Origin: Chlamydiota bacterium
GTDB lineage: Bacteria; Auribacterota; Tritonobacteria; UBA1439
DNA: 20,632 bases
Assembly (NCBI GenBank): GCA_012729785.1
Contig: JAAYCL010000039.1
Span: forward strand, 1 to 20,632
Direction: 5' to 3'
Shown: piece after piece, positions 4,920 to 11,007 of the stretch
How the letters are laid out: each line of letters opens with the position of its first letter
Position numbering within the stretch: position 1 is the first letter of the stretch
Position numbers and translations under genes: made by a program
The notes under the pieces: model-generated
What the model saw: the letters and a program-made list of their open reading frames with translations, nothing else
Told to the model about the DNA's origin: nothing
Database searches by the model: none

Positions 4920-6412
4920 CCGAGCCGCTCTCCTCGACGCCGCAGATCATCCTCATCGCGGGGGTGCTCTTCTTCTTGAGCGTCCTCACCAACCGGCTCT
5001 CCGAGCGTTTCGGCGTGCCCGCCCTCCTGATGTTTCTCGCGGTCGGGATGCTGGCCGGCTCCGAGGGGGTCGGCGGCATCTACTTCGACAACGCCGCCGT
5101 GGCCAACTTCGTGGGGGTGTTCGCCCTCGCCTATATCCTCTTCTCCGGGGGGTTGGACACGGACTGGCGGGCCGTGCGCCCCGTGCTCTGGCGGGGGCTG
5201 ACGCTCGCCACGCTGGGTGTCGCCGTCACGGCGGCCCTCGTCGGCCTGTTTGCGTGGCTGCTGCTGGATCTGACGCTGAAGGAGGGGATGCTCCTCGGGG
5301 CCATCGTCTCCTCCACGGATGCCGCCGCCGTCTTCGCCCTGATGCGGGCCCGCGGCGTGGGTTTGAAAGGGCACCTCAAGCCCCTCCTCGAACTCGAGTC
5401 CGGGAGCAACGACCCGATGGCGGTGTTTCTCACGACGGCGCTCATCGGCACGATCGTGAACCCGGTCGGCTCGTGGGCGCAGTTTCTGCCGAGACTGCTC
5501 GTCAACATGTCGTGCGGGTGCCTGGTGGGCCTCGCCGTGGGCTTCATGGCCTCCTTCGCCCTCAACCGCCTGCGCCTGGAATACGAGGGGCTCTATCCGG
5601 TCTTGAGCATGAGCATCGTGCTCCTCGCCTACGGGCTCGCCGAGACGCTCCGGGGCAACGGCTTCATCTCCGTCTACATGTGCGGGATCATCATGGGGAA
5701 CAAGGAGTTCCTCCATAAGCGCTATCTGATGCAGTTCCACGACGGGCTGGCGTGGTTGATGCAGATCATCCTGTTCCTCGCGCTCGGGCTCCTGGTCTTC
5801 CCCTCCCGCCTGCTGCCGGTCGCGAAACCGGCCATGCTTCTGGCGGCGTTCCTGATGTTCGTCGCCCGTCCGGTCGCGGTGTACGCCGGGCTCTGGCGGA
5901 GCCGGTTCACCCTCCCGGAGAGGACGCTCGTCGCCTGGACCGGCCTGCGCGGCGCGGTGCCGATCGTGCTCGCGACCTTCCCATTCCGGGCCGGTTACCA
6001 GCGCTCGGACATGATGTTCAACATCGTCTTCTTCATCGTGCTCACCTCGGTGCTTTTGCAGGGCAAGACCCTCATGACGGTGGCGCGGTGGCTGGGGGTG
6101 GACAGGCCCCTGCGCCCCCGGTTGCGCTATCCGATCGAGTTCGAGTGGCAGCCGGGGATGCACAGCCGGACCCGCGAAATCGATATCCCCGCCTCCGGCG
6201 CGGTCGTCGGGAAGCAGGTCTCCGAACTCGATCTCCCGGGAGAGGTGCTGATCCTCCTCATCAGGAGGGGGCAGGAGTTCGTGGTGCCGAAGGGGCAGAC
6301 GCGGATCGAGGCGTACGACACCCTCATGTGCATGGCGAACGGGGAAGACCTCCGGAAGGCGCAGGCCGTGCTCACCGCCCCGGCGGCGCACGAGGAGGAG
6401 GGCGGCGCATGA
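4916..6412 (+). CDS. nhaP2: NhaP2/CvrA-type K+(Na+)/H+ antiporter
   Basis: This CPA1-type antiporter exchanges K+ or Na+ for protons across the inner membrane and helps control cytoplasmic cation levels and pH. Residues 1-395 contain about 12-13 membrane segments. The segment ELESGSNDPMAVFL holds the Asn-Asp pair expected at the ion site, and SSTDAAAVFAL is also typical. The soluble tail (about 410-485) fits a TrkA_C/RCK_C domain. At 498 residues it lacks the extra C-terminal domain of E. coli NhaP2. I place the start at the ATG overlapping the DUF2062 stop, because upstream in-frame sequence lies inside that gene. The last 47 codons are duplicated at 8050-8193. Confidence 0.9.
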   Translation: MTEPLSSTPQIILIAGVLFFLSVLTNRLSERFGVPALLMFLAVGMLAGSEGVGGIYFDNAAVANFVGVFALAYILFSGGLDTDWRAVRPVLWRGLTLATLGVAVTAALVGLFAWLLLDLTLKEGMLLGAIVSSTDAAAVFALMRARGVGLKGHLKPLLELESGSNDPMAVFLTTALIGTIVNPVGSWAQFLPRLLVNMSCGCLVGLAVGFMASFALNRLRLEYEGLYPVLSMSIVLLAYGLAETLRGNGFISVYMCGIIMGNKEFLHKRYLMQFHDGLAWLMQIILFLALGLLVFPSRLLPVAKPAMLLAAFLMFVARPVAVYAGLWRSRFTLPERTLVAWTGLRGAVPIVLATFPFRAGYQRSDMMFNIVFFIVLTSVLLQGKTLMTVARWLGVDRPLRPRLRYPIEFEWQPGMHSRTREIDIPASGAVVGKQVSELDLPGEVLILLIRRGQEFVVPKGQTRIEAYDTLMCMANGEDLRKAQAVLTAPAAHEEEGGA

Positions 6413-6468
6413 CGCCCGGTCTCGAGGCGCGGGTCGACGCGCCTTCGCGGCCGTCCGACGGGCCGGCC
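6269..6468. repeat. Direct repeat, copy 1 (antiporter tail plus PRTase-like gene head)
   Basis: These 200 bases align without gaps to 8050-8249. I count 29 mismatches by eye (about 85% identity). Bases 6269-6412 are the intact end of the antiporter. Bases 6409-6468 are a diverged copy of the first 20 codons of the gene at 8190 (MTPGLEARVDAPSRPSDGPA against MTPGLDARIDALSRRFNEPA). Similarity stops abruptly at both ends. Confidence 0.9.
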
Positions 6469-8028
6469 GGGAAAGATCCGGGGGCCGGGGGAAGACCCCT
6501 GCTCTTTTCCGTGAGCGCGCCGCGCGAGAAGTGCGCGGCGCTCCCCGGCGCCGCGTGCGCGCTGCCACATCGGCGATGCGAGGGAGTCCGCACGAATGCC
6601 GCGCATCGCGCGGCGCGGATGATGCCCCTGATCGCCCTGTGCGCCGCGCACGGGTGCGTCTCCGGGCCGCGGGAGGCGATGCGGATCGACGGGCGCTTCG
6701 ACGACTGGGCCGGGGTCCGTCCGGCGTGCGTCGATCCGCGCGGCGACGGGGGGCACTCGGGCGTCGACTTCGGGCGGGTGTGGATCTGTGACGACCGCGA
6801 CGCGCTCTATTTTCGCTTCGACACAGGGAAAGAGATATCCCTCCAGTCGAGGAACGGCATCGCGCTGTATCTCGACACCGACGACTCCGCCGAAACCGGC
6901 ATTCCGGTCGGGGGGATCGGTGCCGATGTCTCCTGGCGCTTCGGCGCGCGGGAGGGGGTCGACCACCGCTTCGCCCCCGCGAGGATCTTCAACGCCTACG
7001 AGGCCGGCATGGTGACCGGCCCCACGGTGACCTCGCGGGAGCACGAGGTCAAGATGCGGAAGGACGCCGGCACGAGGGCCGTCCGATGGCTCCTGCGCGA
7101 CGAGGGGGACGGCCGAGGCGACATCGCGCCGGACCAGGGCGCGGCGGGGCGCTACGAGTTTACGGGGGCGGAGGTCACCCGTACCGGGGCGCGCCCGCTC
7201 GCGAAGCGCTCGGCGCGGGACGTGCGGGTCGTCAGCAACAACGTCTACGAGGACAACATCTTCAACCGGGAGGCGGAATTCTCCCGCATCCTGAACGCGC
7301 TCGCCCCGGACGTGCTCGCCCTCCAGGAGATCAGGAGGCACCGCGCCGCACAGGTCGCGGAGGTCGTGACGCGAATGACGGGCGGCGCCTGGCACACGGC
7401 CGACCACGCGGACTGCTTCACCCTCAGCCGCTACCCGGTGCTGAGCGCCACGAAGGTCGCCGCCGGCATCGGCGCGCTCCTCGACCTCCCCGACGAAACC
7501 TATGCCCGCGACCTCTTCCTCGTCAACCTCCACCTCGGGGCCGGCACGAAGGACGAGCGCCGGCAGCGGGAGGTCGACGAGGTCGTCGCCGCGCTCCGCG
7601 ACCTGAGGGCGCCGGGGCGCCCCGGCTCGCTGCCCCCCGGCACGCCGATCGTCATCGTCGGCGACCTCAACCTCGTCGGCCTCGCGCGGCAGCTCGCGAC
7701 GCTGCTGACGGGGGACATCGCCGACGAGGCGCGGTTCGGGCCCGACTCGCCGCCGGACTGGGACGGCACGGCGATGACGGACCTCGCCCCCTCGCACCTC
7801 TCCGCCCCGGAGGCGTACACCTGGGCGAACTACCACCGCAGGGGGTTCGGTCCCGGCCGCATCGACTACGTGATCTACGCCGACTCCGCGGTGGCGGTGG
7901 CGAACCGCTTCGTCCTGAGCACCGACACGATGTCGGACGCGGACCTCGCCGCGGGCGGCTTGAGGAGAGACGACACCCGGACGGCGAGCGACCATCTGCC
8001 CGTCGTCGCCGACCTCGTCCTGCCCTGA
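6409..8028 (+). CDS. Exported endonuclease/exonuclease/phosphatase-family protein with a CBM9-like N-terminal domain
   Basis: The EEP fold cleaves phosphoester bonds in nucleic acids, lipids or small phosphates; the substrate here is unknown. Its hallmarks are all present from the ATG at 6409: SNNVY near residue 277, LALQEI with catalytic Glu307, GDLN with Asp419 and Asn421, and SDHLPV with Asp528 and His529. Before it, residues about 91-240 begin IDGRFDDWAGV, resembling CBM9/DOMON-like ligand-binding domains. The start is uncertain. The ATG at 6409 overlaps the antiporter stop and has an upstream GGAGG, but its first 20 codons are a duplicated piece of another gene. An ATG at 6619 gives a short N-terminus, MMPLIALCAAHGC, that looks like the end of a lipoprotein signal. 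A GGGAG-preceded ATG at 6596 is in another frame and meets a stop after 8 codons, so a frameshift is possible. The gene lies between two 200-bp direct repeats. Confidence 0.8.
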   Translation: MTPGLEARVDAPSRPSDGPAGKDPGAGGRPLLFSVSAPREKCAALPGAACALPHRRCEGVRTNAAHRAARMMPLIALCAAHGCVSGPREAMRIDGRFDDWAGVRPACVDPRGDGGHSGVDFGRVWICDDRDALYFRFDTGKEISLQSRNGIALYLDTDDSAETGIPVGGIGADVSWRFGAREGVDHRFAPARIFNAYEAGMVTGPTVTSREHEVKMRKDAGTRAVRWLLRDEGDGRGDIAPDQGAAGRYEFTGAEVTRTGARPLAKRSARDVRVVSNNVYEDNIFNREAEFSRILNALAPDVLALQEIRRHRAAQVAEVVTRMTGGAWHTADHADCFTLSRYPVLSATKVAAGIGALLDLPDETYARDLFLVNLHLGAGTKDERRQREVDEVVAALRDLRAPGRPGSLPPGTPIVIVGDLNLVGLARQLATLLTGDIADEARFGPDSPPDWDGTAMTDLAPSHLSAPEAYTWANYHRRGFGPGRIDYVIYADSAVAVANRFVLSTDTMSDADLAAGGLRRDDTRTASDHLPVVADLVLP

Positions 8029-8049
8029 GCGGGCGCGTCCGGACCTCCG

Positions 8050-8193
8050 GGGCGGGAGTTCGTTGTGCCGAAGGGGCGGACCCGGATCGAGGCGTTCGCC
8101 ACCCTTATGTGCATAACGAACAGGGACGACCCGCAGGGGGCGCAGGCCGTGCCCGCCGCCCCGGCGGGGCAGGCGGAGGAGGGGGGCGCATGA
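8050..8193 (+). pseudogene. Duplicated C-terminal fragment of the antiporter
   Basis: It encodes 47 codons and a stop matching the antiporter end: GREFVVPKGRTRIEAF here against GQEFVVPKGQTRIEAY in the intact gene. The frame is kept with no internal stop. There is no start and no upstream antiporter sequence, so it is a remnant. Its TGA overlaps the ATG of the following gene exactly as in the intact antiporter junction. Confidence 0.88.
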
Positions 8194-8249
8194 CGCCCGG
8201 TCTCGACGCGCGGATCGACGCGCTTTCGCGGCGGTTCAACGAGCCGGCC
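8050..8249. repeat. Direct repeat, copy 2 (antiporter tail remnant plus PRTase-like gene head)
   Basis: This is the partner of 6269-6468, in the same orientation and without gaps. Here the PRTase-like gene head (8190-8249) is the functional copy and the antiporter tail is the remnant. The DNA between the repeats, 6469-8049 (1,581 bp), holds essentially only the EEP-family gene. Confidence 0.9.
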
Positions 8250-9188
8250 ATCCCGGAGCCCTCGATCCGGAAATGGCTCGGGCAGTTCGAGGAGGAGGAC
8301 CGCCCGGCCGCGCTCCTCCTGCTCGAGCAGATCACGTTTCACACCTACCCCGCCCTCATCGGGGAGTCGCGCCTCCTACACGGCAAGCTGAAGGCGGCGC
8401 TCTCGGCGGCGGGGTTCGACGGCGATGGGTTGCGCGACGTAGATTTCACGCGCGAGTTCACCTGCAAAAGCGGGGACATCATCTCCTACATCTACCGGAA
8501 GGCGAACCTCATCCCGACGGCCGATTTCAAGACGGTCGACCGGCTCGTCGAGGCCTCCGCGCAGGAGGAGGAAGGGCGCGGCGAACGGGCGCTGGTGATC
8601 CTTGACGACTACATCGGCACCGGGTCGCAGTTCATATTCCAGTTCGTCGCGAGAAGCCCGGAGGATATCCGCCTCATCGGGAGCTACAAGCGGGTCTTTC
8701 TCTGCTGCGTCGCGGTGCACGAGAAGGCGATCGAAAAGGGGTTCCTCCTGCGGCATGGGAGGATCGAGGAGGTGATCAGGCTCGAGGAGGAGCAGATCCC
8801 CGACGTGGACTTCGCGCCGGACGAGAAGCTGTTCCGCGAATCGCTCCGAAAGGTGGACTGGTCCAGGATCGAGCTCGTCCGCCTCCACACGGACGTCTCC
8901 ATCCTGTCGGAGGAGAACGGCTCCCTCGACCGCGAACAGAAGCGGATCGTGGAGCGGTTTCTGAACAGATACGCGCTCAAGGGGTGCGAGGGCGCGACCA
9001 GTTTCCTCTGCGGGAGGCACGCGTTCTTCTACGGCGCGCCCAACGCCGTCCCGGCCGTCCTGCTGCCGCTCTTCACGCGCGTGGAGGATTTCACGGTCTA
9101 CCCGGACGAGCACTACACCGGGATCACGTCGCAGATCATCGACTACGAAATGGGCGACGGCGGGACGTGCACCATCGTGCGCATTTAG
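8190..9188 (+). CDS. Phosphoribosyltransferase-like protein, resembles PRTase-CE
   Basis: This 332-residue soluble protein has a PRPP-loop-like motif VILDDYIGTGSQ at 136-147: hydrophobic strand, two Asp, then TGS. The N-terminal part (IRKWLGQFEEEDRPAALLLLEQITF) is a helical segment typical of PRTase-CE proteins, which Burroughs and Aravind linked to prokaryotic conflict systems. In that setting such domains are proposed to act on nucleotides or as effectors. The assignment rests on motif resemblance, so moderate confidence is right for the family and low for the role. The ATG overlaps the TGA of the antiporter-tail remnant, with GGAGG upstream. Before the insertion it would have overlapped the antiporter gene itself. 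A 109-bp palindrome follows its stop. Confidence 0.65.
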   Translation: MTPGLDARIDALSRRFNEPAIPEPSIRKWLGQFEEEDRPAALLLLEQITFHTYPALIGESRLLHGKLKAALSAAGFDGDGLRDVDFTREFTCKSGDIISYIYRKANLIPTADFKTVDRLVEASAQEEEGRGERALVILDDYIGTGSQFIFQFVARSPEDIRLIGSYKRVFLCCVAVHEKAIEKGFLLRHGRIEEVIRLEEEQIPDVDFAPDEKLFRESLRKVDWSRIELVRLHTDVSILSEENGSLDREQKRIVERFLNRYALKGCEGATSFLCGRHAFFYGAPNAVPAVLLPLFTRVEDFTVYPDEHYTGITSQIIDYEMGDGGTCTIVRI

Positions 9189-9190
9189 CG

Positions 9191-9299
9191 CAGACGTTGT
9201 ATGGAACCGCATCCGGGGGAAGAAGTTATACATTAAGTCGTCCCTGGGACGACTAAACGTATAACTGGTTACCCCGGAATGTGTTGCATACAACGTCTG
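9191..9299. repeat. 109-bp in-register palindrome (MITE-like or hairpin element)
   Basis: The outer arms CAGACGTTGTATG (9191-9203) and CATACAACGTCTG (9287-9299) are perfect inverted repeats. The inner arms AGTCGTCCC (9236-9244) and GGGACGACT (9246-9254) share the same centre, base 9245. Pairing each base with its mirror gives about 44 of 54 matches without gaps, including AGTTATAC/GTATAACT and TCCGGGG/CCCCGGA. The element has much lower GC than its surroundings. No T-run follows, so it is not a standard terminator. It could be a miniature inverted-repeat element, a cruciform or an mRNA-stability hairpin. Confidence 0.85.
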
Positions 9300-9310
9300 T
9301 GTGATATACT
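9283..9310 (+). promoter_or_regulatory. Promoter for the MuiA-family gene
   Basis: An extended -10 (TG-a-TATACT, 9302-9310) is preceded by GTTGCA at 16 bases or TTGCAT at 15 bases. The -35 region falls inside the right arm of the palindrome, so the element overlaps the promoter. The predicted leader is about 18 nt and includes GGGAGG. Confidence 0.6.
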
Positions 9311-9333
9311 ACGCCGAAAGACGGGAGGACTAA

Positions 9334-11007
9334 ATGAAGACCTGGCGGTGGGTGGCGGCAATGGCGTGCGCGATGGCGATCGCGGCGGCGTCGGCGCTGT
9401 GCGGCGCGGCGGGCGGGAAGCCGCCGGCGGTGGAATCCGACATCGCGGCGGTCACGGTCTACGCGGACCGCGCGCGGGTGACGCGCCGGGCGGAACTCGC
9501 CCTCGACGCGGGGGTGCAGTCGTTCGTCTTCGCCGGGCTCCCGGCGGGTCTCATCGAGAGCTCTTTGCGGGCGCGCGGGGAGGGCGCGGCGGGGGTGACC
9601 ATCCTGGGGACGGAGATGGAACCCGAGTACCTGGCGGAGGCGCAGGACGCGCGGGTGCGCGAGCTCGAGGGGCGGATCGAGGCGCTCGAGGAGGACGCGC
9701 GCGCGCTCGAGGACGAGACGAAGGCGGTGGGGCTCCAGATGAAGTTCGTCGAGTCGATCGGCGCCTCCGTGCCCGAGGGGATATCGAAGGAGATGCTCCT
9801 CAGGGAGCCGAACCCGGCGGAGTGGGCCAGGGTGGTGGAGTTCATCGGCAGGGAGCGCGGCGCCCTCGCGCCGAAACTGCGGGAGGGGCGGAAAAAGCAT
9901 CGCGATCTGATGAAGGAGATCGAGGCGGCGAAGAAGACGCTGGAGCGCATCGTCTCCGAGTCCCCGCGGGAGCGCAAGAACGTCCGCGTGACGCTCGAGG
10001 CCGCCTCGAAGGGGCCGTTTCTGCTCGAGCTCTCGTACGTGACCTGGGGCGCGGGATGGGAGCCGCTCTACGACGCCCGCGCCGAGCGCGCCGCGGGGAA
10101 GGTTTCGCTGACCTACTGCGCGCAGGTGCGGCAGGCGACGGGGGAGGACTGGACCGACGTCGCGCTGGAGCTCTCCACCTCCCGCCCGTCGGTGAGCGGA
10201 AGGCCGCCGGAGCTTGCGCCGTGGTACATCGGCTTCGAAAGGCCGCGCGCGGCCAGGATGATGGCGCTTTCGGCCGCGGCCCCGGTCCCCCTGGGCGAGG
10301 CCGCCGAAAAAGCGGACGCGGCGGCCCCCGCGGGCGTGCCCGTCGAGGCGCGGGTCGCCACCGCGGAAATCGGCCGCCGCGGCGAGGCGGTCACCTTCAC
10401 CGTGAAGCGGAAGGAGACGATCCGGGGCGACAACTCCCTGCACAAGACCGTGATCGCGGAGTTCCCGCTCGTGGCGGAGTACGGCTACCTCTCCGTGCCC
10501 AAGCTGGCCGAGTTCGCCTTCCTGACGGCCGAGGTGAAGAACGAGACCGGCTTCCCGCTGCTGGCGGGGGCGGTGCAGATCTTCCTCGGGCCGGAGTTCG
10601 TCGGATCGTCCTCGATCGAGCACGTGGAGACCGGCGCGTCGTTCCCCCTCTACCTCGGCATCGACGAGGGGATCCGCGTGAAGCGGAAGCTCCTCGCGGC
10701 GGAGACGGAGAAGGGGCTGGTGCGGCGCCGCACGGGGTGGAGGAGCTTCCGCTACCGGATCGAGGTGGAGAATCTGCGGGACCGGACGGAGACGGTCACC
10801 GTGCTCGACCAGATGCCGGTCTCGAACTCCCCCGACATCGCGGTGGCGCTCGCCTCGGCGTCGCCGGAGCCGTCGAAGATCGCGGAGTGGGAGACGCCGG
10901 GGTCGCTCGCGTGGAGGCTGGAACCGGCTCCGAAGGAGAAGAAGACGGTGGAGTTCGAGTTCACGGTCCAGTACCCGAAGGAGAGGGAGATCGAGGGGCT
11001 GGACTGA
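9334..11007 (+). CDS. MuiA-family exported protein (DUF4140/DUF4139)
   Basis: The 557-residue protein starts with a signal peptide (MKTWRWVAAMACAMAIAAASALCGA). A DUF4140-like beta domain follows at about 38-115 (IAAVTVYADRARVTR). Next is a charged coiled coil at about 110-210, then a DUF4139 domain from about 215 to the end. The motif SYVTWGAGWEPLYDAR and the final stretch YPKEREIEGLD are characteristic of the 'mucoidy inhibitor MuiA' family. The molecular function of the family is unknown; the name comes from a capsule-suppressing effect reported in E. coli. Export to the periplasm or surface is inferred from the signal peptide. The start is supported by GGGAGG 6 bases before the ATG, and its own promoter lies just upstream. 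Confidence 0.85.
   Translation: MKTWRWVAAMACAMAIAAASALCGAAGGKPPAVESDIAAVTVYADRARVTRRAELALDAGVQSFVFAGLPAGLIESSLRARGEGAAGVTILGTEMEPEYLAEAQDARVRELEGRIEALEEDARALEDETKAVGLQMKFVESIGASVPEGISKEMLLREPNPAEWARVVEFIGRERGALAPKLREGRKKHRDLMKEIEAAKKTLERIVSESPRERKNVRVTLEAASKGPFLLELSYVTWGAGWEPLYDARAERAAGKVSLTYCAQVRQATGEDWTDVALELSTSRPSVSGRPPELAPWYIGFERPRAARMMALSAAAPVPLGEAAEKADAAAPAGVPVEARVATAEIGRRGEAVTFTVKRKETIRGDNSLHKTVIAEFPLVAEYGYLSVPKLAEFAFLTAEVKNETGFPLLAGAVQIFLGPEFVGSSSIEHVETGASFPLYLGIDEGIRVKRKLLAAETEKGLVRRRTGWRSFRYRIEVENLRDRTETVTVLDQMPVSNSPDIAVALASASPEPSKIAEWETPGSLAWRLEPAPKEKKTVEFEFTVQYPKEREIEGLD

Follow-up and report, generated by a model that had tools for sequence, protein, structure and literature searches.

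The stretch of DNA analysed here (the window, 20,632 nt) is contig C39 of the 2.59-Mb host genome, G000, whose contigs are designated by C-numbers. Two co-directional genes of the forward strand are separated in it by a long palindrome. The upstream gene (8190–9188) encodes a 332-aa protein with a PRTase-CE domain, a family often linked to conflict and defence systems, and 1 nt separates its stop codon from the left half of the palindrome. The downstream gene (9334–11007) encodes a MuiA-like protein with DUF4140 and DUF4139 domains and starts 33 nt past the right half. Elsewhere in the window, a direct repeat of 201 nt (6268–6468 and 8049–8249, 86% identical, spacing 1781 nt) flanks an endonuclease/exonuclease-like frame; it is apparently a duplicated 3' end of an antiporter-like gene plus the start of the next gene, and looks like a segmental duplication or an insertion.

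The palindrome at 9191–9299 is the strongest inverted repeat within the window. When recomputed, its geometry agreed with the values first read from the sequence: two arms of 54 nt (9191–9244 and 9246–9299) face each other in register around a centre at 9245, with 44 of 54 pairs matching (81% complementarity) and outer arms perfect over 13 bp. The number of such palindromes expected anywhere in the window, from a binomial calculation on its composition, is about 6e-11. Folded as single-stranded DNA, the region reaches −41.5 kcal/mol (z = −11), which none of 200 shuffles equalled. It is also AT-richer than its surroundings, as had been noted, with a GC content of 48.6% versus 69.5% for the window. 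The limits given by family conservation are one base wider on each side (9190–9300), so that the palindrome comprises a left unit of 55 nt on the plus strand, a terminal inverted repeat (9190–9244, GCAGACGTTGTATGGAAC...AAGTCGTCCC; nhmmer family profile, E 6e-13; conservation confined to unit positions 1–55), and a right unit of 55 nt, inverted and thus on the minus strand (9246–9300, ACAGACGTTGTATGCAAC...TAGTCGTCCC; E 3e-13, in agreement with the conservation profile). The single base 9245 separates them; in other copies the centre holds 0–12 bp, a remnant of an IS4-family element (on C25) or a RAYT gene (on C14).

We asked whether such a structure could serve the adjacent gene. A palindrome between two co-directional genes would be transcribed, and the hairpin is strong, as expected if selection kept it at this locus as a cis-regulatory hairpin or as an attenuator controlling the MuiA-like gene. 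However, a scan for terminator-like sites found none in the palindrome region, a scan for sigma-70-like promoters passed no site in 9100–9400, and an Rfam scan of the window gave no match. The −35 region that the sequence-only reading had placed in the right arm is therefore unconfirmed, its suggestion of a regulated hairpin found no support, and that of a replication or cruciform site found no specific support. Moreover, orthologues of the MuiA-like gene in three relatives (G001, G002 and G003) have no unit upstream; the palindrome is therefore no conserved part of a promoter. Since the upstream gene is not syntenic in the relatives, it is only the absence of the unit that can be read at this locus. 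Finally, the palindrome is not unique in G000, and we consider a regulatory origin very improbable. Uniqueness and conservation confined to the promoter had been named as arguments against a mobile element, and neither was found.

A whole-genome search of G000 revealed related palindromes and half-palindromes on many contigs, and the search for dispersed copies, which had been proposed for this genome and its relatives, was thus positive; a plasmid collection searched in addition gave no match. The halves form a gapless alignment that defines a single unit of 55 nt, GYAGACGTTGTATGNAAC-N12-CAA-NN-RGTTRYGCNTTTAATCGTCCC, and the palindrome consists of two inverted copies of this gapless unit (GYAGACGTTGTATGNAAC...TTTAATCGTCCC). 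Conservation begins at position 1 of the unit, ends at position 55 and is flat beyond both. The 16-nt end AGACGTTGTATGCAAC occurs 43 times in G000 at up to 3 mismatches, versus 3 times for a reversed control pattern. G000 holds about 38 credible units, which are found as singles, as 12 compact head-to-head pairs and as pairs with an insert between them. All 12 compact pairs have the identical head-to-head orientation and measure 106–118 bp; from AGACG to CGTCT, eight copies are 106–107 nt long and four are 116–118 nt long. These two length classes differ by about one helical turn of DNA. Most units begin with GTAG or GCAG. The copies are only about 70% alike, and most insertions are therefore old.

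The GTAG or GCAG start, the hairpins formed by inverted pairs and the linkage to a RAYT gene described below recall the classical REP/REPIN organization, in which each half is a short hairpin with a GTAG foot recognized by the RAYT. This interpretation appears unlikely here, because the folding of single units does not surpass that of shuffles (mean z −0.43), and because conserved boxes mark the two ends of the unit, about 55 nt long, whose interior holds no conserved stem. As a single unit forms no hairpin, we regard it as a terminal inverted repeat and not as a REP, and the idea of a REP hairpin inside one unit was set aside for lack of excess folding. Pairing is found between the two arms of an element. 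Across seven palindromes of 107 nt, 79% of the cells pair and 20 pairs show changes on both sides, with a covariation score that none of 500 shuffles and none of the slid controls reached. At unit positions 37–55, the arms agree more within an element than between elements (0.81 versus 0.63; 0 of 20,000 permutations), and no such excess is seen at positions 19–36 (0.41 versus 0.40). Either pairing constrains the central stem, or the two ends of each element come from one subfamily; the similarity from arm to arm could reflect common subfamily membership instead of pairing.

What kind of enzyme, then, is associated with these units? On contig C14 of G000, a RAYT gene lies between inverted units (7102–7955) with a further unit at 8068, which gives the order unit, RAYT gene, unit over about 7.10–8.07 kb. 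The product (230–258 aa) matches Y1_Tnp (PF01797, E 4e-8); it also matches REP_Tyr_transpos, the model of REP-associated tyrosine transposases, at E 2e-17, a score under the cut-off of that model. Its frame, HuH histidines and tyrosine motif are intact, although the enzyme could nevertheless be inactive. In G002, a Candidatus Auribacterota genome of a related genus (contigs JAPLCW01), two genes, on C4 and C185, lie between inverted units, and their products are 53–54% identical to the C14 protein. Scanning the named genomes for RAYT homologues gave 49 loci, the closest of which are mostly from Omnitrophota, and an inverted unit of the matching kind flanks the gene in 21 of 27 close homologues (Omnitrophota and one Scalindua). 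A gapless alignment of 22 units from Omnitrophota, Scalindua and Auribacterota has 10 invariant columns; the association of transposase and unit extends over several phyla. Y1_Tnp is matched by all 23 transposases compared, and a profile built from them found a sole match in the PDB, the E. coli TnpAREP (4er8, E 3e-8). The HuH histidines, the tyrosine and the NP residues are invariant across the aligned transposases, with a tyrosine motif Y[IV]ERNP; their C-terminal tail has no HTH match in Pfam.

Further Y1 transposases are present in these genomes. A different Y1 transposase (L123 and L129, on C36 of G000 and C44 of G001) is flanked by inverted GGGGTCGGACCACGWTATCT, which is near the GGGGWSAS terminal repeats of the literature. 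Related RAYTs at L152, L142 and L149 (G002, G005 and G004, respectively; 37–40% identity) lie between inverted repeats whose outer sequences are different (GGTGACAC.., GGGACACTCTT..). At L142 the repeat has the unit's inner GCAA..AGTTAT motif, suggesting that the ends diverge along with the enzyme.

A partner of another class was also considered. One inverted pair of units in G000 (C25:67751–68333, corresponding to L068:1052–1634) encloses about 470 bp with a remnant of an IS4-family transposase. This arrangement would fit a MITE derived from a DDE insertion sequence (IS4- or IS630-like), which should share its TIRs with that sequence and show a target-site duplication; the RAYT link would then be coincidental. 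We hold this to be most unlikely: the IS4 remnant was met once, whereas units bracket a RAYT gene in G000, two in G002 and 21 of 27 homologues, and the target-site duplication that had been suggested as a check was not seen by eye in the examined flanks. IS4 was accordingly rejected as the partner on the basis of its one remnant. Two further candidates were discarded, an IS630-like element with a TA target, since the outer dinucleotide varies and no duplication was seen, and an integron attC site, whose core-site consensus is not matched by the ends on inspection. The earlier proposal of a mobile element is supported as far as the element is concerned; its kind, which had been left unnamed, is given by the link to a HuH/Y1 transposase of the RAYT type and not to a DDE insertion sequence.

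When the unit model was used to search genomes of the host phylum and of Omnitrophota, each of the six genomes in the host's GTDB family proved to contain units, and the phylum's 38 other genomes had none (0/38), a result that doubles as a control of specificity. Several Omnitrophota genomes contain tens of dispersed units. Among ten Omnitrophota and Scalindua regions with paired units, five show a palindrome of 115–130 nt at the pair, the Scalindua region shows a longer and weaker one, and in the remaining four the paired units are not the best palindrome of the stretch. Since palindromic pairs of about 115 bp occur in Omnitrophota, the palindromic dimer is not peculiar to G000. A literature search combining Omnitrophota, transposase and palindrome found no paper.

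Units are frequently located at gene 3' ends, where the TAG or TAA of the unit is the stop codon of the upstream frame. The thiL gene of G000, for example, ends ...EGGFAHLA-TAG, with the TAG supplied by the unit. At this thiL–tsaE locus, a pair of units is present in G000 and absent from G001, a genome of the same genus, in which the thiL orthologue ends ...EGGFGHFGGGRA-stop and is followed by tsaE. Comparison of G000 with G003, which belongs to another genus, gives the same pattern at a phosphoglucomutase-like gene, and the units at C4:3009 and C42:10598 of G000 are likewise absent in G003. The absent/present pair at the syntenic thiL–tsaE locus, together with the dispersed copies and the units in every family genome, supports the suggestion of a miniature inverted-repeat element. 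The loci on C4, C42 and C14 are syntenic between G000 and relatives but yield no base-exact empty sites, because the intergenic DNA is too diverged to align. Because stops occur in several frames of the unit, insertion near gene ends by itself accounts for part of the stop-codon pattern, and a true preference for gene 3' ends as targets is a tentative suggestion. One half-unit (C42:14322 in G000) is kept at the corresponding position of G003; some copies therefore persist vertically. Such retention across genera, and the divergence of the copies (about 70% identity), could indicate a domesticated binding site (nucleoid, gyrase or replication) in a genome, G000, where transposition died out long ago. 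We judge this improbable given the presence and absence of units between genomes of the same genus and the intact transposase frame, and there is no positive evidence for such a binding protein.

We therefore propose, with a probability of roughly 85%, that the palindrome is a non-autonomous derivative, REPIN- or MITE-like and devoid of transposase, of a RAYT transposon flanked by terminal inverted repeats (a ‘TIRtron’), and that it is mobilized in trans. It would consist of the two 55-nt terminal inverted repeats of a RAYT/TnpAREP-like Y1 HuH transposon, abutting head to head without an intervening gene, and the C14 element would be an intact transposon of the same family. The following scenario draws on the IS200/IS605 and TnpAREP literature and on general knowledge. 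In single-stranded form, such as on the lagging-strand template at replication forks, the element would fold as one long hairpin; a transposase supplied in trans would recognize the unit ends and cut through its catalytic tyrosine; and the element would be re-inserted, often at gene 3' ends, with the in-frame TAG or TAA of the unit becoming the new stop codon. The sequence comparisons establish the family, the limits of the unit, its link to the transposase and the presence or absence of copies between relatives, and transposition itself is deduced from them; mobilization in trans, the way the enzyme would act on the element, the route through single strands and the rule for target choice are proposed by analogy. 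The element is a new family of a kind already known, with an unusually clear link between transposase and unit across phyla. More tentatively, and with less than even confidence, we speculate that there is a distinct lineage of RAYT transposons, common to Omnitrophota, one Auribacterota family and Scalindua, characterized by a conserved linear (non-hairpin) end of 55 nt, by spread as full-length palindromic dimers, and by preferred insertion at gene 3' ends with the GTAG end serving as stop codon.

The biology of REPs and REPINs is known mainly from Proteobacteria, and here uncultured phyla provide a cognate transposase linked to its dispersed palindromic repeats. The unit is conserved across phyla though it forms no hairpin. 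It thus offers a natural comparison for whether RAYTs recognize linear ends or folded stems, and bears on how the ends of transposons become populations of REP-like repeats.

The RUP element of pneumococcus is an IS630-type MITE of about 107 bp, non-coding and dispersed between genes. The present palindrome resembles it in these features of size, coding and location, but the partner transposase is HuH/Y1 and not DDE, and no target duplication was seen. RUP is listed among the IS630-type MITEs (PMC3733652). Another comparison is with the REPINs of Pseudomonas fluorescens (Bertels and Rainey 2011, PMC3116915), likewise dispersed inverted doublets of about 110 bp that each fold into a single hairpin; their outer ends are conserved, the arms show compensatory changes, and the same repeats flank a cognate RAYT. 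However, the halves are here 55 nt long and nearly fully paired, without a REP stem-loop in each, and copies number tens versus hundreds; although most units start with GTAG or GCAG, the repeat is not a short stem-loop with a GT[AG]G foot. TIRtrons are RAYT-like genes flanked by long non-REP inverted repeats, and their dispersed TIR families are often dimers (Di Nocera et al. 2013, PMC3733652). Their transposases (TIRYT) fall mostly in TnpAY1 subclass 2.1 (Quentin et al. 2018, PMC6006769), which has NH[VYF]H, W[EQ] or FQ, and Y..NP motifs, a length of about 238 aa and no REP hairpins (PMC6006769). The present family differs from these in its tyrosine motif, Y[IV]ERNP, in its hosts, Omnitrophota and one Auribacterota family, in a C-terminal tail without an HTH match in Pfam, and in a unit consensus that lacks GGGGWSAS, a motif common but not universal in described TIRs (PMC3733652), and has a REP-like GTAG/GCAG tip. 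By inspection, the NH[YF]H and W-Q type motifs and the length near 230 aa are compatible with subclass 2.1, to which the transposases may belong. As in TIRtrons, a Y1 gene is flanked by long non-REP inverted repeats (C14 of G000, C4 and C185 of G002, and 21 of 27 homologues), and these repeats are also dispersed as singles, dimers and groups.
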